Positions 26,846 to 60,677 of a stretch of DNA of 64,000 nucleotides are shown here, one piece after another. The stretch's first letter is position 1, and every line of letters begins with the position of its first letter. The notes beneath the pieces were generated by a model that saw only the letters and a list, made by a program, of their open reading frames with translations, was not told the DNA's origin and searched no databases. The position numbers and the translations under genes were made by a program. This DNA comes from Oceanimonas pelagia. Lineage in GTDB: Bacteria > Pseudomonadota > Gammaproteobacteria > Enterobacterales > Aeromonadaceae. The DNA lies in contig NZ_CP118224.1 of NCBI RefSeq assembly GCF_030849025.1, positions 418,001 to 482,000 on the forward strand, given 5' to 3'.

Positions 26846-28291
26846 TTATTTCCCGCCCAGCAGGGATCCCAGCAAGCCGCGTGCCAGGCGCTGTCCCAGC
26901 TGGCTGCTCATGCTGCGCAGGGCGCTCTTGGCCATGCTTTCCAGCAGTGAGTCCGCTTGTCGCCGCGCCGGTGCCGGAGCTTGCGGCGCTGTCTCGGCCG
27001 GGGTGGCCGCCAGCCGCCGCGCCAGCATTTCAAAGGCCGAATCCCGATCCAGGCTTTGCTCGTAGCGGCCAGCCAGGGGCGACTGTTGCAACCTGAGCCG
27101 GCGCTCGTCCGCACTCAGGGGGCCAATACGGGATTCCGGCGGACAGATCAGGGTGTGCTGCACCATGGTGGGGGAGCCTTTTTCGTCCAGCACCGAGATC
27201 AGGGCCTCGCCCACGCCCAGCCGGGTGATGGCGGCCTGAGTATCAAACGCCGGATTGGGCCTGAAGGTGCGGGCCGCCGTGCGCACAGCCTGCTCGTCCT
27301 TGGGAGTAAAGGCGCGCAGGGCGTGCTGAATGCGGTTGCCGAGCTGACCCAGTACCGGCTCGGGAATGTCCTGCGGACTCTGAGTAATGAAGTACACCCC
27401 CACGCCTTTGGAGCGGATCAGCCGCACCAGCTGCTCCACCTTGTCGAGCAGGACCCGGGGGGCGGTATCGAACAGCAGATGAGCCTCGTCGAAGAAGAAC
27501 ACCAGCTCGGGCCGCTCGCCATCGCCCCGCTCCGGCAGGTTTTCAAACAGCTCGCTCAGCAGCCACAACAGCAGGCTGGCGTACAGGCGCGGCCTTTGCA
27601 TCAGCCGGCGGGCGTCGAGAATGCTGACCACGCCCTGGCCGGAAAACTCCCGTTGCATCAGATCCGGCAGTTGCAGTGAGGGCTCGCCAAAAAAGTGTTC
27701 GGCCCCTTCCTGCTCCAGCACCAGCAGACGCCGTTGAATGGTGGCCAGGCTGTTGGCGGGCAGGTGGCCGTAGCGTGGCCCCAGTGCCTTGCCGTTTTCC
27801 ATCACCCAGCCCAGCAGGGCGCGCAGATCCTTGAGATCCAGCAACAGCAGACCCTCGTCATCGGCAATGCGGTAACAGGCGTACAGCAGGCTGGTTTGGG
27901 TGTCGTTCAGAGCCATAGTGTTGGCCAGCAGCAGCGGCCCCAGCTCGGACAGGCTGGCCCGCACCGGGTGGCCGCTTTCGCCGAACAGATCCCACAGCAG
28001 GGTGGGCACAGCGCGGGGCTGGTAATGTGAGTATGACAAGAGCGCCAGCCGCTCGGACACCTTGCCGCTGGTGCCGGCGGCGGCTGCCAGCCCCGACAGA
28101 TCGCCCTTGGCGTCGGCCACAAACACCGGGGTGCCGGCGCGGGAAAAGCCTTCCGCCAGTCGTTGCAGGGTCACGGTTTTGCCGGTGCCGGTGGCGCCGG
28201 TGATCAGACCATGGCGGTTGGCCATGGGCAGGTACAGCTCAACGGGCTGCTGCGCCCGGGTGCTGCCAAGATAGAGGCGGGGGCTGTTCAT
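26846..28291 (-). CDS. YjgR-like HerA-family ATPase (DUF853)
   Basis: A soluble P-loop ATPase of 481 residues. Walker A is GATGTGKT (residues 32-39) and Walker B LVFFFDEAHLLF; an arginine-finger-like region follows. The C-terminus is low-complexity with a glycine/leucine tail. The family (E. coli YjgR) is related to the HerA/FtsK translocases but its physiological role is not established. It is downstream of putP on the same strand but separated by the putP terminator. Confidence 0.85.
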   Translation of the reverse strand: MNSPRLYLGSTRAQQPVELYLPMANRHGLITGATGTGKTVTLQRLAEGFSRAGTPVFVADAKGDLSGLAAAAGTSGKVSERLALLSYSHYQPRAVPTLLWDLFGESGHPVRASLSELGPLLLANTMALNDTQTSLLYACYRIADDEGLLLLDLKDLRALLGWVMENGKALGPRYGHLPANSLATIQRRLLVLEQEGAEHFFGEPSLQLPDLMQREFSGQGVVSILDARRLMQRPRLYASLLLWLLSELFENLPERGDGERPELVFFFDEAHLLFDTAPRVLLDKVEQLVRLIRSKGVGVYFITQSPQDIPEPVLGQLGNRIQHALRAFTPKDEQAVRTAARTFRPNPAFDTQAAITRLGVGEALISVLDEKGSPTMVQHTLICPPESRIGPLSADERRLRLQQSPLAGRYEQSLDRDSAFEMLARRLAATPAETAPQAPAPARRQADSLLESMAKSALRSMSSQLGQRLARGLLGSLLGGK

Positions 28292-50144: not shown

Positions 50145-51506
50145 TTACAGCCCGTAACGCTCGATCTTTTTCAGCAGCCCCTGGCGGGATAGTCCCAGCG
50201 CCTGGGCGGCGCGGGTGCGGTTGTTGTCGTGGCGGGCCAGGGCGTCGGTGATCAGCATGATTTCCAGTGCCCGCACCTGGGCTTCAAGCGTGTCGCCGCC
50301 GGATGCGGGCATGGCCGGGCCGGGCTCTTTGGCGTCGGGGTAAAGCAGGGCGATGTCGTCCAGGGTGATAATGCCCCCCTGGGCGATGGCGGCCACGCTG
50401 TCGAGGGTGCTTTTCAGCTCGCGTACATTGCCCGGCCAGCGTCGCTGAATAAACCAGTGAAAGGCGGCGGAGTCGGGATGCAGCGGCGGCCGGCCGCTGC
50501 CCTGGGCCTGCAGTTCGAGGAAGTGGCTGATCAGCAGCGGAATGTCTTCCGGGCGATCATCCAGCGGCCGGGTTTCAATGGTCACACCCTTGATGCGGTA
50601 GAACAAGTCCTCCCTGAACTCGCCACTGGCCACCTTGTCGGGCAGGCTGGCGTTGGTGGCCGAGATCACCCGTACGTTAATGGTTTCAAGCGTGCGCCCG
50701 CCTACCGGGTAGAAAGTGCCTTCCTGCAACACCCTGAGCAACTTGACCTGCATCGCCAGGGGCATGTCGCCGATTTCATCGAGAAACAGGGTGCCGCCGT
50801 CGGCCAGCTTGAGCAGGCCGTCCTTGTGGCGGTCGGCGCCGGTAAAGGCGCCTTTGGTGTGGCCAAACAACTCGCTTTCCAGCAGCTCGGCGGGAATGGC
50901 GCCGCAGTGCACCGAGATAAAGGGGCCATGCGCGCGCGGGCTGAGATCGTGAATGGCGCGGGAGATCACTTCCTTGCCGGTGCCGGAGGGGCCGGTGACC
51001 AGCACCCGCACATCGGTGGGGGCAATGCGGCTGACCAGGGCGCGAATGGTGTTCATGGCCGGTGAGGCCCCCACCAGGGTAGTGATGGGGTTTTGCCGGC
51101 CCATGCGGGTTTTCAGGCTGTTGAGCTCGCGCACCAGCTGGTGTTTGGTAATGGCGCGGCGGATCACCACCGCCAGCAGGTCCGGATCCATGGGTTTGGC
51201 CAGCAGATCCCAGGCGCCCTGGCGCAGGGCTTCCAGTGCCAGCTCCCGCTCGCCGTGGCCGGTGAGAATGATCACGGGTCTGTCGGTGAATTCGGGCAGG
51301 GCACTCAGGGTGTGGTGCGGATCGAAGCGGGGCGGCAGCGACAGATCCAGCAGGATCAGATCCGCATCCACTCGGGTCAGCAGGGCACGCAGGGCGTCGA
51401 GATCGGCACCGGTATGCACCTCGTAGCCTTCGGCCTGCAGCCACTGGGCGCTCAGGGTGCGAAAGGCGGGCTCGTCGTCGATGACGATAATGCGGGCCTG
51501 GGTCAT
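50145..51506 (-). CDS. Sigma54-dependent response regulator
   Basis: An NtrC/AtoC-type activator of 453 residues: receiver domain (phosphorylation site Asp54 in LILLDLSLP), AAA+ domain with Walker A GPSGTGKE, the sigma54-contact loop GAFTGAD, Walker [11 protein letters not shown], and a C-terminal Fis-type helix-turn-helix ([24 protein letters not shown]). Its start overlaps the kinase stop by 4 bases. A near-consensus sigma54 promoter lies just beyond the kinase gene in front of the divergent bd oxidase operon, its likely target. Confidence 0.93.
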
Positions 51507-53371: not shown

Positions 53372-53399
53372 GAATGAGCGCGTCCGGGTGTAAATAGCG

Positions 53400-53428
53400 T
53401 TGACAGTTACGGGCGAAAAAACTGTAAA
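53400..53428. promoter_or_regulatory. Candidate activator-binding inverted repeat (UAS)
   Basis: TTGACAGTT-N11-AACTGTAAA; arms match at 8 of 9 positions. Its centre is about 115 bases upstream of the predicted sigma54 transcription start. A second looser repeat (AAAC...TTGT / ACAAGTTT) follows at 53426-53453. Confidence 0.5.
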
Positions 53429-53465
53429 CCTTGTTGTCGGTGAACACAAGTTTTTGCGTTTTTAT

Positions 53466-53502: not shown

Positions 53503-53518
53503 TGGCACGCTTCATGCA
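53503..53518 (+). promoter_or_regulatory. Sigma54 (-24/-12) promoter of the bd oxidase operon
   Basis: TGGCACGCTTCATGCA matches TGGCACG-N4-TTGCA at all but one position. The GG (53504-53505) and GC (53516-53517) are separated by exactly ten bases, as required. Transcription would start near 53529, 28 bases before the first small gene. Confidence 0.8.
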
Positions 53519-53556
53519 AAACCAGCTCACCAGACTAACGAGTGAGCCATATAACA

Positions 53557-55072: not shown

Positions 55073-56068
55073 ATGGATCTGGCACTGTTTTATTATTTGC
55101 TGCTGGGCTTTGCGGTACTGATGTACGTGGTGCTGGACGGCTTTGACCTCGGCCTCGGCATTCTCTACCCCTGGTTTCGCAGCGAGGGCGAGCGGGATCA
55201 CATGATGCGCTCCATCTCTCATGTGTGGGACGGCAACGAAACCTGGCTGGTGTTTGGCGGTGTGGTGCTGTTCGCCGCCTTTCCCGCCGCCTACGCCGGC
55301 ATACTGGCCACCCTGTATACGCCCATTATCATCATGCTGATCGGGCTGATATTCCGGGGCGTGGCCTTTGAATACCGCTTCAAGTCGCACCGCTCCAAGC
55401 CCTGGTGGGACAAATCGTTCTGGCTTGGCTCCACCGTGGCCACCTTTTGCCAGGGCGCCATTCTCGGCGCCGTAGTGCAGGGGGTAGACGCCGGCCCCGG
55501 CGAGCTGGGGGCCCTGGCCTGGCTCAGCCCGTTCAGCATTTTTACCGGTTTTGCGCTGATGGTGGCCTATGCCCTGCTGGCCTGCTGCTACCTGGTCTTG
55601 AAAAGCCGGGAGCAGATGCTGGCCCGGGCCGCCCACCTCGGTCGCCGGCTGGTGCTGGCCATCATGGCCATTCTGCTGGTGCTGAGCCTGTGGATGGTGC
55701 TGGCCAACGAGGAAGTCAGCAGCCGCTGGTTTGACGGTCTCAACCTGCTGTGGCTGTCGCCGCTGCCGCTGGCGAGCGTGCTGCTGGGCTTCCTGCTGTA
55801 CCGGGATCTGGATGGCGAGCCCCACGAGACCCGGCCCTTCTGGCTGGCCTGCGGCCTGTTCGTGCTGGGCTTTGGCGGTCTGGTGGTGAGCCTGTTCCCC
55901 TATCTGATCCCGCACCGGCTGACCCTGTGGCAGGCCAGCGCACCGGACTCCAGCCTGACCTTCCTGCTGCCGGGTATCGCCATCTTCCTGCCGCTGATCT
56001 GCGCCTATACCCTGTGGGGCTACCGCATTTTCTCCGGCAAGGTGGAAGACTTTGAGGAAGGCTACTGA
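55073..56068 (+). CDS. cioB: Cytochrome bd-type quinol oxidase subunit II
   Basis: The second membrane subunit, 331 residues with about nine helices. YVVLDGFDLGLGILYPW and WDGNETWLVFGG near the N-terminus and FEYRFK are diagnostic of CydB/CioB. It starts one base after the cioA stop and its stop overlaps the next small gene (TGATG). The length fits CioB better than E. coli CydB (379). Confidence 0.94.
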   Translation: MDLALFYYLLLGFAVLMYVVLDGFDLGLGILYPWFRSEGERDHMMRSISHVWDGNETWLVFGGVVLFAAFPAAYAGILATLYTPIIIMLIGLIFRGVAFEYRFKSHRSKPWWDKSFWLGSTVATFCQGAILGAVVQGVDAGPGELGALAWLSPFSIFTGFALMVAYALLACCYLVLKSREQMLARAAHLGRRLVLAIMAILLVLSLWMVLANEEVSSRWFDGLNLLWLSPLPLASVLLGFLLYRDLDGEPHETRPFWLACGLFVLGFGGLVVSLFPYLIPHRLTLWQASAPDSSLTFLLPGIAIFLPLICAYTLWGYRIFSGKVEDFEEGY

Positions 56069-56217: not shown

Positions 56218-56304
56218 GTGTTGGGGGCGCGTTAGTATGCTCGGGCAACCCGAGATGACGAATACCTATTGCCACCAGAGACGCCTCGACACGGAACGTT
56301 GATC

Positions 56305-58944
56305 ATGACCCACGCCGCCCCCTTGCCCTGCAACGAACCCGCCCGCCTGGCCTGCCTGCACCAGCTGCAACTGCTCGACACGCCGGCAGACCCGGAATTC
56401 GATCAACTGGTGGAGCTGGCCTGCCTGCTGCTCGATACCCCCATGGGGGTGGTATCGCTGGTGGACGAACACCGCCAGTGGTTTCGTGGCCGGCGCGGGC
56501 TGGCGGTGCAGGAAACCCCGCGGGACATCGCCTTTTGCAGCTGGGTGGTGGCCGACGGGGCGCCGTTGATCGTACCGGACGCCAGCCAGGATCCGCGTTT
56601 TGCCGGCAATCCTCTGGTCACCGGCGAACCCGGGCTGCGGTTTTATGCCGGGTTTCCCCTTTATCTGGAATCCGGCCTGGTGCTGGGGGTGCTGGCGGTG
56701 CTGGACACGCAGGCCCGCACCCTGAGCGAAGAAGAACGGCGTCGGCTGGGCCTGCTGGCCGAGCAGGCCCGGGCCCTGCTGCGGCTGCGCTGGAAGCGGC
56801 AACAGCTGAATGAGCAGGGCCACCTGAGCGACAGCCGGCTGGCCCGCTATGAGGCCATTACGCAAGGGGCCGCCGCCGGCATCGTCCGCATTGATGGCCG
56901 GGGCCGGATTCGGGAGATCAACGACTACGCTCTCAAGCTGCTCGGTTACGGGCGGGAAGAGCTGCTGGGGCAGAATGTCAGCCGGCTGATGCCGGCCCAG
57001 TGGGCGGAGCATCACGATCAGTATATTCGCAGCTATCTTGACGGCGGTGAGGCCAGGGTCATTGGCAAGGGGCGAAGAGTGGCGGCCCTGCACAGGAACG
57101 GTCAGCAGGTGCCGGTGCACCTGGCGGTGGGTCAGGTGCGCCAGGACGATCAGCATGACAACGCCGAGTTTATCGGCATTCTTACCGACCTCAGCGAAAC
57201 GCATCAGGCCGAGCTGCGGGAGCGGGAGGCGGCCCGCCAGCTGGAGCGTCAGCAGCGGCTGCTGAGCGTGCTGCACAAGGGTCTGACCGACTACCATGCG
57301 CTCATGTCCGGCAACCAGTTGTGGGGCTTTTTGCAGGAGGCGCTGCGGGAGCTCACCGGCAGCGACTATTCCCTGATCGGCGAGGTGCTGCCCGTTGAAA
57401 GCGGGCCGGCGTTGAAGGTGCATGCCATCACCGACCTGTCCTGGAGCGAGGAGTCGCGCCAGCTGATGCTCAAACTGCAGGCCGGGGAGATGCTGCTCAC
57501 CAACCCGGCCAGCATGCTGGGCCGGGTGTTCGCCGGCGGCCAGACCGTGCTCAGTAACGACATGGCCGGAGATGCCCGCCGCGGTGGCTTTCCACCCGGC
57601 CATCCGCCGCTGCACAATTTTCTGGGGGTTCCCATTATCGATGACGGCGAGGTGATCGGCATGTTCGCCATCGCCAATGGTCGCGAGGACTACAGTCAGG
57701 CGCTGGTGGCCTGGCTGGAGCCCTTTACCTCCACCTGCGCCCTGCTGATCAACCTCTATCGCCAGTTGCGCGAGCGGGAGGCGGTCACCGAGCAGTTGCG
57801 GCAGGCCCGGGATGAGTCTGAGCGTGCCAGCCGGGCCAAAACCGAGTTTCTGTCGTCCATGAGCCATGAGCTGCGCACGCCCCTTAACGCCATCATGGGC
57901 TTTGCCCAGCTGCTGCAGAACAACCAGCGCACCCCCCTGGGCGAGCGCCAGTTGCGTCAGGTGGAGCAGATTTACAAAAGCGGCAGCCACCTGCTCAAGT
58001 TGATCAACGAGGTGCTGGATCTGGCACGCATCGAGGCCGGTCGCATCGACATGTCGTTCGAGGCCATCGATGTGACCGACGTGGTGCGCGAGGCCTGTGA
58101 CATTCTCTCCCCCATGGCCCAGCAACAGGGCATTCAGCTGTTGGTGCAGGTGGGGCGCTGCGGCACCGTCACCGCCGATTACACCCGGCTCAAGCAGGTG
58201 CTGATCAACCTGATTTCCAACGCCATCAAGTACAACCGGCCCGATGGCCAGGTCAACATTGCCTGCCGTCGCGACGGTGAGCGCCTGCGCATTGCGGTGC
58301 GGGACACCGGAGCCGGCATTGCTCCCGAGCACCTCGATCAGTTGTTTCAGCCTTTTAACCGCCTGGGAGCCGAGAACGGCGTCATTGAGGGGACCGGCGT
58401 GGGGCTGGCGCTGACCAAAAGCATTGTCGAGCAGATGCAGGGAGAGATCGGTGTCAACAACCACCCCGGTGATGGCTGTGAGTTCTGGTTCTGCCTGCCC
58501 CTGGCCGAGCCGGCATCAACGGCGGCCCTGCCGGAAGCTCTGCCGTCGCGGGAGCCGGTTGCCGGAGCTGGCAAAACCGTGCTTTACGTGGAAGACAATC
58601 CGGCCAACCAGCGCTTGCTGAACGATCTGTTCGATGACCTCGACGGCATCGAGCTGGCCTGTGTGCACTCGGCGGAGCTGGCCTTTGAAATGGCCTGCGC
58701 CAGCCCGCCGGATCTGATCCTGATGGACATCAACCTGCCCGGCATGAACGGAATCGAGGCGACCCGCCTGCTGGGGCGGCATCCGCGCACGCGCCATGTG
58801 CCGGTGGTGGCGCTGTCGGCCAATGCCATGCCGGAAGAGGTGCGCCAGGCCCGCAGGGCCGGCTTTCGGGACTACCTGACCAAGCCGGTGGACATTCCCC
58901 GGCTGCTGGCGCTGCTCGGTGAGCTGACCGGAGACGCGTCATGA
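56305..58944 (+). CDS. Hybrid sensor histidine kinase (GAF-PAS-GAF-HisKA-HATPase-REC)
   Basis: A soluble kinase of 879 residues. An N-terminal GAF domain (about 20-160, DTPMGVVSLVDEHRQWF), PAS (about 185-300, GIVRIDGRGRIREINDYALKLLGYGREEL), a second GAF (about 320-480), DHp with SSMSHELRTPLNAIMGF, an ATPase with NLISNAIKYN and GTGVGLALTKSIVEQMQG, and a receiver (LILMDINLPGMNG). ATG 56305 is preferred over TTG 56269. No membrane segment is visible. It overlaps the EAL regulator by 4 bases. Confidence 0.92.
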   Translation: MTHAAPLPCNEPARLACLHQLQLLDTPADPEFDQLVELACLLLDTPMGVVSLVDEHRQWFRGRRGLAVQETPRDIAFCSWVVADGAPLIVPDASQDPRFAGNPLVTGEPGLRFYAGFPLYLESGLVLGVLAVLDTQARTLSEEERRRLGLLAEQARALLRLRWKRQQLNEQGHLSDSRLARYEAITQGAAAGIVRIDGRGRIREINDYALKLLGYGREELLGQNVSRLMPAQWAEHHDQYIRSYLDGGEARVIGKGRRVAALHRNGQQVPVHLAVGQVRQDDQHDNAEFIGILTDLSETHQAELREREAARQLERQQRLLSVLHKGLTDYHALMSGNQLWGFLQEALRELTGSDYSLIGEVLPVESGPALKVHAITDLSWSEESRQLMLKLQAGEMLLTNPASMLGRVFAGGQTVLSNDMAGDARRGGFPPGHPPLHNFLGVPIIDDGEVIGMFAIANGREDYSQALVAWLEPFTSTCALLINLYRQLREREAVTEQLRQARDESERASRAKTEFLSSMSHELRTPLNAIMGFAQLLQNNQRTPLGERQLRQVEQIYKSGSHLLKLINEVLDLARIEAGRIDMSFEAIDVTDVVREACDILSPMAQQQGIQLLVQVGRCGTVTADYTRLKQVLINLISNAIKYNRPDGQVNIACRRDGERLRIAVRDTGAGIAPEHLDQLFQPFNRLGAENGVIEGTGVGLALTKSIVEQMQGEIGVNNHPGDGCEFWFCLPLAEPASTAALPEALPSREPVAGAGKTVLYVEDNPANQRLLNDLFDDLDGIELACVHSAELAFEMACASPPDLILMDINLPGMNGIEATRLLGRHPRTRHVPVVALSANAMPEEVRQARRAGFRDYLTKPVDIPRLLALLGELTGDAS

Positions 58945-60677
58945 CCGTGCCCACTCACGCCGACGCCCACATTCTGGTGCTCGACGACAATCCGGTGAAC
59001 GTGGAGCTGCTGCTCTGTCTGCTGGAAGACGAGGGCTACCGCCATGTGCATGGAGAAACCGACCCGCGCCGGCTGCCGCAGATCATGAAGGCCCAGCGGG
59101 TGGACCTGTTGCTGCTGGATATTCGCATGCCGCACCTGGACGGCTACCGGGTGCTGGAATGGCTGCATGCCGAGTGGGGCGAGCAGGCACCGCCGGTGAT
59201 TGTGCTCAGTGCCCAGACCGATGCCGACACCCGGCTGCGGGCCCTGGGCCTGGGGGCCCGGGACTTTCTCAACAAACCCTTTGACCAGCTGGAAGTGCTG
59301 CAGCGCATTCGCAACACCCTGGAGGCCCACTTTCTGTTGCGCGAGCGCAGCGTGCGCGCCGCCTGGCTGGAAGACGAGGTGCGCCAGCGTACCAGCGAGC
59401 TGCAGCAACAGGCGATCAGTGATCCGGTTACCGGCCGGCTTAACCGGCGTGGCCTGCTGGAGCAGTTGCAGGGGCACACCGGGCGCGGCGTGGTGGTGTA
59501 TTTTGTTGCCCTCGACGGCCTGGAAGACATTGCCCGGCTGCATGGCCTGCGGGTGGCCGAAACCCTGAGCCGCACCCTGAGTGAACGCCTGCAGTCGTTG
59601 CTGCATGAGCAATCGTGCGTGTTTGGTGCCTGGAGCAACAGCGAGTGGCTGGTACTGGACTTCGGCACGCCGCAGACGGACGGGCTGGCCTGCCGGGCCG
59701 ATGCCCTGCTGCACAGCCTGGCTCAGGGCATTGAGGTGGAACGGCTGCTGCTGCACCTGGATTGCCGGGTCGGCATCAGCCACAGCGCCCAGGCCCACGA
59801 CAGCGCCGAGCACCTGATTCGGCAGGCGGCCATGGCGTTGCCGCCCAAGGCCGGCACATGGCGCTGCTTTGAACCGGCCCTGGAGCAGCGGTTGCTGACC
59901 CTCAGCCATTACCGTCAGGCCCTGCGCACCGCCGCCGAGCAGCATCAGCTGTTTCTGGTGTATCAGCCCAAGATGGAGCTGAGCGGCGAGCGGGTGGTGG
60001 GGGCCGAGGCCCTGTTGCGCTGGGTCAGCCCCGAGTTCGGCTTTGTATCGCCGGCGGATTTTATTCCCATTGCCGAAAGCAGCGGCGATATTCTGCGCCT
60101 GGGAAGCTGGGTGATCGACACCGCCATAGACCAGCTGGAGCAATGGCTGGCGCAGGGGGCCGTGCCCCCGGACTTTCGCGTGGCGGTGAACGTGGCGGCG
60201 CTGCAGCTGATGCAGCCGGGCTTTGCCGATGGCCTGATCACTCGCCTGGCCCACAGCCGGTTACCACCGGGCGCGCTGGAAATCGAGGTGACCGAGTCGG
60301 GGTTGATGCAAAACATGGAGCTGGCGCTGGTGCAGCTCAACCAGCTGGCGGCGGCGGGCATCGGCATTGCCATTGACGACTTCGGCACCGGCTATTCGTC
60401 GTTGGCCTACCTCAAGACCATGCCGGTGTCGGTGCTCAAGATAGACAAGGCCTTTGTGGAGCGAATGGACGCCGACGAGCAGGACCGGGGCCTGGCCCAG
60501 GCGGTGATCCACATGGCCCGCATACTGGGCTGCGAAACCGTGGCCGAGGGAGTGGAGCGCCCCGAACAGGTGGCGCTGCTCAGGACCATGGGCTGTAACC
60601 TGGTACAGGGCTACTGGTATTCGCCGCCCCTTAACCCCGAGGCCTTCGTGGAGTATTGCCAAAGCCAGAACGGCTAA
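58941..60677 (+). CDS. Response regulator with degenerate GGDEF and EAL phosphodiesterase domain
   Basis: A 578-residue output protein: receiver (residues 8-125, Asp60 in LLLLDIRMPHLDG), a GGDEF-like domain whose signature is SNSEW instead of GGDEF (so no cyclase activity expected), and an EAL domain with the catalytic set GAEALLRW, NVAALQL, IEVTESG, IAIDDFGTGYSSL, LKIDKAFV and AEGVE. It should hydrolyse cyclic di-GMP when phosphorylated by the overlapping hybrid kinase. No motility or biofilm target is evident nearby. Confidence 0.9.
   Translation: MTVPTHADAHILVLDDNPVNVELLLCLLEDEGYRHVHGETDPRRLPQIMKAQRVDLLLLDIRMPHLDGYRVLEWLHAEWGEQAPPVIVLSAQTDADTRLRALGLGARDFLNKPFDQLEVLQRIRNTLEAHFLLRERSVRAAWLEDEVRQRTSELQQQAISDPVTGRLNRRGLLEQLQGHTGRGVVVYFVALDGLEDIARLHGLRVAETLSRTLSERLQSLLHEQSCVFGAWSNSEWLVLDFGTPQTDGLACRADALLHSLAQGIEVERLLLHLDCRVGISHSAQAHDSAEHLIRQAAMALPPKAGTWRCFEPALEQRLLTLSHYRQALRTAAEQHQLFLVYQPKMELSGERVVGAEALLRWVSPEFGFVSPADFIPIAESSGDILRLGSWVIDTAIDQLEQWLAQGAVPPDFRVAVNVAALQLMQPGFADGLITRLAHSRLPPGALEIEVTESGLMQNMELALVQLNQLAAAGIGIAIDDFGTGYSSLAYLKTMPVSVLKIDKAFVERMDADEQDRGLAQAVIHMARILGCETVAEGVERPEQVALLRTMGCNLVQGYWYSPPLNPEAFVEYCQSQNG

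Follow-up and report, generated by a model that had tools for sequence, protein, structure and literature searches.

The cioAB operon of Oceanimonas pelagia, which encodes a bd-type quinol oxidase, very probably has a sigma-54 two-component switch of its own, encoded next to it, which would act on a small membrane-peptide gene together with cioA and cioB. The features concerned, all lying in the window (the whole stretch of 64,000 nucleotides that was analysed), are collected in Table 1. A dedicated sigma-54 system for this terminal oxidase had been proposed in the initial annotation, and the proposal is supported by the co-occurrence of the kinase, regulator and oxidase genes in 50 of 50 loci, by the promoter box in 45 of them, by the joint absence of system and sites in 5 of 23 congeners and by a conserved pair of DNA dyads, which that annotation did not contain and which strengthens the case for dedicated regulation.

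Table 1. Features of the divergent regulator and oxidase locus, in window coordinates.
Feature	Position	Strand	Remarks
NtrC-type response regulator	50145..51506	-	Pfam Response_reg, Sigma54_activat, HTH_8: receiver (D54), AAA+ with Walker A and GAFTGA, Fis-type HTH
Membrane histidine kinase, 622 aa	51503..53371	-	7TM N-terminus; Pfam HisKA_7TM, HisKA (H430), HATPase_c
Upstream dyad 1, GTAAATAGCGTTGAC	53390..53404		Candidate regulator site
Upstream dyad 2, GTAAACCTTGTTGTC	53424..53438		Candidate regulator site, 34 bp from dyad 1
FNR/ANR-like element, TTGATCCAGGGCAA	53465..53478		8/10 to TTGATN4ATCAA, weak
Sigma-54 -24/-12 promoter box, TGGCACGCTTCATGCA	53503..53518	+	Predicted; GG 53504-53505, GC 53516-53517, 10 bases between
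Small membrane-peptide gene, 32 codons	53557..53655	+	Unannotated; first gene behind the predicted promoter, before cioA
cioA, bd oxidase subunit I, short Q-loop	53665..55071	+	Pfam Cyt_bd_oxida_I
cioB, bd oxidase subunit II	55073..56068	+	Pfam Cyt_bd_oxida_II; NCBIfam cydB 133.5 bits, cut-off 117.3

The membrane histidine kinase and the NtrC-type activator with GAFTGA that had been read across the intergenic region, divergent from the oxidase, are both confirmed. The regulator combines the receiver aspartate, the AAA+ domain with Walker A and GAFTGA and the HTH of the NtrC-family bacterial enhancer-binding proteins; D54 and Walker A are invariant in its alignment, and GAFTGA is present in 11 of 12 sequences, the locus L060 having GTFTGA. 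Its scores lie under the NCBIfam equivalog cut-offs of its three best models, namely NtrC (375.6 bits for a cut-off of 558.6), AtoC (373.3 for 714) and the PEP-CTERM regulator PrsR (357.3 for 502.6). The kinase belongs to the 7TM sensor kinases by its match to HisKA_7TM PF16927 (32.6 bits, cut-off 28.6), accompanied by matches to HisKA and HATPase_c. Four residues in or near its membrane region, C17, C49, H52 and H155, are invariant in an alignment of 14 sequences and are candidate sensor residues. The AlphaFold model of the kinase (mean pLDDT 74.5) is mainly helical over residues 1-296 and, with a pTM of 0.43, is too weak for the placement of a ligand; a fold search with it returned kinases in its best 50 rows, over some 220-295 aligned columns, and no named relative of the 7TM part among them.

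The assignment of the oxidase to the bd type also stands, both subunit families being matched and subunit I having a short Q-loop: about 60 residues of E. coli CydA (about 313-372) are without counterpart in CioA, as in CIO-type bd oxidases, and CioA residues 4-440 match 5doq as a single stretch. The window's genome contains one rpoN, as a single PF00309 match over the cut-off, and rpoN was also found in 8/8 Marinomonas/Marinobacterium genomes searched. The same genome carries four genes of the COX1 family (PF00115), a family that can include NO reductases. Two proteins are encoded downstream of cioB (56269-60677), a large one that we read as a sensor-kinase/receiver protein and one whose domains we read as REC-GGDEF-EAL-like; in 6 of 24 loci cioB is followed by a close copy of the former (70-88% identity).

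The box TGGCACGCTTCATGCA lies where it had been reported, on the + strand, with the exact GG-N10-GC spacing and a single mismatch, agreeing at 11 of the 12 scored positions of TGGCACGN4TTGCW. It does stand in front of the bd oxidase operon, but the first gene after it is the 32-codon gene and not cioA. With up to two mismatches, the pattern TGGCACGN5TGCW was found 59 times in the window for 69.7 expected, which is not above chance, and the box by itself was dropped as evidence; weak alone, it becomes convincing through the comparison among relatives. A tighter pattern, TGGCAYGN4WTGCW, has six occurrences in the whole genome and none in the reversed control. Another window box, matching at 12/12 (26871-26886, - strand), was set aside, as it falls inside an open reading frame of the same strand (26846-28291) and is probably due to chance.

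The comparison was started from the GTDB genus of the window, a sample of 23 genomes that includes Oceanimonas, Zobellella and Oceanisphaera species. CioA is encoded in all 23 and the kinase in 18, in each of which kinase and cioA are divergent neighbours; the kinase was found in none of the 52 other genomes of the family. A scan of a genome collection with the kinase gave 27 loci, of which 24 hold full-length relatives, every one accompanied by the regulator and by divergent cioA and cioB, whereas the kinases of the other three are remote (identities of 25%, 24% and 25%) and are not accompanied by regulator and cioA/cioB. Among the 24 are Marinobacterium nitratireducens (kinase 59%) and eight Marinomonas (50-53%). 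Two profile searches scored the best three candidates per genome, so that misses are possible: across the class, with a narrow profile, 1 of 369 genomes had the kinase, this being the window itself, and in the Marinomonas order (390 genomes) at least 26 had it at E<=1e-80, with regulator and divergent cioA in 26/26.

Removal of overlaps left 50 distinct loci (18 from the genus, 9 from Marinomonas/Marinobacterium and 23 others), which were found via the kinase and are mutually related. The initial annotation had raised the question whether kinase, regulator, box and cioAB stay together in relatives, and they do: kinase, regulator and CioA were recovered jointly in 50/50, with kinase identity to the window descending to about 40%, and a GG-N10-GC box scoring at least 9/12 is present in 45/50, for a mean of 3.0 and a maximum of 8 in dinucleotide shuffles. 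The other five loci (L096-L100) have TGGCAyG-N4-TTGTA, that is, GT and not GC at -12. The box lies 157-195 bp upstream of cioA in all 18 kinase-bearing genus loci. Protein distances are correlated between kinase and CioA (0.91), kinase and regulator (0.98) and regulator and CioA (0.90), with 0/999 permutations as high, which is expected for co-inherited genes and is no proof of function. A search of plasmids with the intergenic DNA gave no match.

Between the kinase start and the box lie the two dyads, of consensus GTAAAC-N3-GTTTAC, which we read as the predicted enhancer of the regulator. At a score of at least 9/12, one dyad or more is present in 50/50 loci (shuffle mean 10.0, maximum 18) and two or more in 49/50 (mean 1.2, maximum 5), L104 having one only. 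The pair occurs at a spacing of 25-45 bp in 49/50, the distance being 34 bp in 31 of these 49 and ranging from 31 to 36. The -12 element follows dyad 2 at a distance of 80-84 bp in 37 of the 44 measurable loci, and in the window the dyads lie about 84 and 118 bp upstream of that element. Single dyads of 9/12 are unspecific, being found within 350 bp in four of the five congeners without the kinase and in one of nine control loci, and in 10 of the 50 loci after shuffling. The pattern TGTAAAYNNNGTTNNC, drawn from both window dyads, has no third exact match in the 3.59 Mb genome (the reversed control has one match); two matches are given by construction, and the informative part is the absent third. 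No more than 2-28 nt separate dyad 1 from the kinase start in 45 of the 49 dyad-pair loci, and 2-9 nt in eight Marinomonas loci; because of this nearness the kinase and regulator genes are probably autoregulated, the regulator also controlling its own genes. In Marinomonas loci such as L062, the probable ribosome-binding region of the kinase gene coincides in part with dyad 1, the spacer of which is GAGG on the kinase strand in L062. In Oceanisphaera pacifica (L039/L056), some 500 bp are added between the kinase start and the dyads, with dyads, box and cioA still in register.

Five congeners lack the kinase and regulator while keeping cioA (G040, G049, G051, G056, in which cioA is divided between two contigs, and G059), and neither a box of at least 9/12 within 600 bp of cioA nor a dyad pair is present in any of them (0/5 for each). 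A transporter gene, presumably of the NSS type, lies directly upstream of cioA in 5/5, and about 6 kb off in the window. In the CioA tree these congeners are placed near Oceanisphaera lineages having the system, and since one or two changes suffice, few independent losses would be needed. As controls, CioA was searched for at E<=1e-100 in 17 genomes of the order without a kinase match and in 35 genomes taken from the other 52 of the family, which gave 9/17 and 0/35, respectively; the lack of a close CioA in the 35 family genomes fits a gain of the whole module by transfer. In the nine control cioA loci, no dyad pair was found within 350 or 600 bp (0/9 for both), a single dyad was found within 600 bp in 3/9, and a 9/12 box within 350 bp in 1/9 (L110, 312 bp) and within 600 bp in 2/9; a box of at least 10/12 is found in 0/9. 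Two further loci may be mentioned. Upstream of cioA in L037, a locus lacking the two-component system, inspection by eye showed a repeated segment in several degenerate copies. In L108, from a genome without a kinase match, a receiver-like stretch (about 924-1226 in the cioA orientation; 29% identity to the regulator over 106 aa) lies just upstream of cioA and may represent a further, locally encoded regulator of cioAB.

The small gene preceding cioA encodes a hydrophobic peptide of 31-48 aa in 45/50 loci, longer where an upstream in-frame ATG is present, and is missing in L101-L105. Its dN/dS of 0.18 over 18 genus sequences indicates purifying selection and speaks for the 32-codon frame being a real gene. 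No Pfam or NCBIfam family, CydX/DUF2474 included, was matched at E 0.001, which is a weak test for so short a sequence. CydX/DUF2474 are likewise short single-TM peptides of bd-oxidase operons, but the small gene of the window lies upstream of cioA, whereas, in the portion of PMC5322542 available, these subunits are encoded downstream of cydB and the known CIO small subunits behind cioB. In the five kinase-less congeners the small gene is never intact, three of them aligning across an in-frame stop and two giving no match. Because the peptide is kept in 45/50 loci together with the two-component system and is never intact in the congeners devoid of it, one may tentatively imagine, although we consider it rather unlikely, that the kinase senses the state of the respiratory chain, or that of the oxidase itself, and that the 32-aa peptide is a coupling or signalling component and not a plain subunit, in a self-monitoring sigma-54 switch.

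The model we propose links the observed gene content, sites, conservation and joint absence through steps that we infer from the established properties of NtrC-type activators, on which the scheme from kinase to regulator, dyads and sigma-54 is founded. The 7TM membrane kinase would phosphorylate the adjoining NtrC-type regulator at D54, and the stimulus, at a guess, would be the respiratory or redox state. The regulator would then assemble on the two dyads, and its GAFTGA-bearing AAA+ domain would activate the sigma-54 RNA polymerase at TGGCACG-N4-ATGC, so that transcription of the 32-aa peptide gene and cioAB would begin near 53529. Through dyad 1, the regulator would also act on its own kinase-regulator operon.

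Other readings of the same intergenic region have to be weighed against this model. In the window, cioAB might be transcribed from a sigma-70 promoter that overlaps the dyads (TTGACA at 53400-53405, 17 bp, TGTAAA at 53423-53428), the sigma-54-like box being incidental; the -35 hexamer is perfect and the spacing optimal, a resemblance noticed by eye, and TTGAC forms the end of dyad 1 in 14 of the 18 genus loci. A promoter scan, however, found none, and such a promoter would have no need of the outer half-sites of both dyads, which are conserved across loci, would not account for the perfect palindromes that both dyads form in L060-L063, and leaves unexplained why 37/44 loci have a box at 80-84 bp from dyad 2, all of which renders it very improbable. 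The stretch from TTGACA to TGTAAA had itself been considered as one 30-bp palindrome, which was replaced by two tandem dyads after the Marinomonas loci were compared. The nearness of dyad 1 to the kinase start could also mean that the target of the regulator is the divergent kinase-regulator operon or lies elsewhere, the adjacency of the regulator to cioAB being due to chance or hitch-hiking; an adjacency kept in 50/50 loci over wide divergence, a dyad pattern with no third exact match in the genome and a box directed toward cioAB make this extremely improbable.

A further candidate for the role of main controller is FNR/ANR, the two-component system only tuning expression or acting otherwise. 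All 18 genus loci carry, at a constant position between the dyads and the box, an element scoring at least 8/10 to the FNR consensus, TTGATN4ATCAA (shuffle mean 2.5, maximum 7), and sites of at least 9/10 are present in 15 of 23 order loci (mean 0.6, maximum 4) and in 5 of 9 Marinomonas/Marinobacterium loci (mean 0.3, maximum 3), 16 of these 20 beginning close behind the box, at 18-32 bp from the -12 mark. Yet the window element reaches only 8/10, 9/10 is attained in only 5/18 genus loci, and FNR explains neither the box, the dyads nor the joint absence; we regard it as very improbable in this role. At sites 18-32 bp after the -12 mark FNR would repress, and the perfect TTGATN4ATCAA observed there in L083, L084, L086, L087, L089, L090, L094 and L095 suggests an anaerobic repression on top of the sigma-54 activation; a second, repressing layer of this kind is compatible with the sigma-54 switch. 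An IHF site was considered as well: WATCAAN4TTR-like matches (at least 8/9) with their start 40-41 bp upstream of the -12 mark occur in no fewer than 17 of 32 non-genus loci and, among the matches listed, in 0/18 genus loci, and the site is not claimed, these counts being without shuffle comparison.

The sigma-54 switch that we favour resembles the NtrC/AtoC/PrsR-type systems in its receiver-AAA+-Fis HTH regulator with GAFTGA, its upstream dyads, its -24/-12 promoter and its adjoining membrane kinase, and differs from them in its predicted target, a bd quinol oxidase, in the 7TM sensor of the kinase and in a regulator scoring below the equivalog cut-offs. The control of bd oxidases is usually described via oxygen and redox regulators; ArcA, FNR/ANR and RoxR regulate them at sigma70 promoters, and the cioAB genes of Pseudomonas are controlled by ANR and RoxSR. 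NtrYX shares with the present system the tie of an NtrC-family two-component system to a terminal oxidase, but it is a global system with a different oxidase and is not known as a divergent dedicated module; its link to the Bradyrhizobium cbb3 oxidase is known to us from a title cited in PMC9769520. In Chromobacterium, according to the part of PMC11837568 available, cioAB is controlled by the MarR-type CioR/OsbR and by CviR, and that part contains no mention of sigma-54 or RpoN; the control, local or tied to the redox state, of a cyanide-insensitive oxidase links Chromobacterium and Pseudomonas to the present case, in which both the control and the insensitivity are predicted. For the cydA2B2 genes of Cupriavidus necator, the accessible part of PMC10164946 describes an upstream point mutation and rpoN mutations that arose under CO, the rpoN changes alone bringing no significant gain in growth rate; this case was rejected as a precedent, sigma-54 control not being demonstrated in that part. 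Among the literature matches listed, a scope that mostly excludes subscription papers, no description was found of a dedicated two-component system that controls cioAB/cydAB through sigma-54, nor is there any in the available parts of PMC4626219, PMC2996986, PMC4552427, PMC6825135 (whose mention of RpoN is confined, in that part, to its reference list), PMC4064291, PMC3916325, PMC9769520, PMC6368324, PMC4377017 and PMC2864759.

In conclusion, some marine bacteria appear to turn on a bd oxidase via its own neighbouring sensor-regulator pair and a sigma-54 promoter. The oxidase operon seems to come with a membrane sensor of its own and with a promoter that depends on an enhancer and can stay off until the sensor fires, and the small peptide is a candidate for a new oxidase or signalling component. 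With the module and its sites identified, along with several named strains, it becomes directly testable which signal commits a marine bacterium to its bd oxidase.
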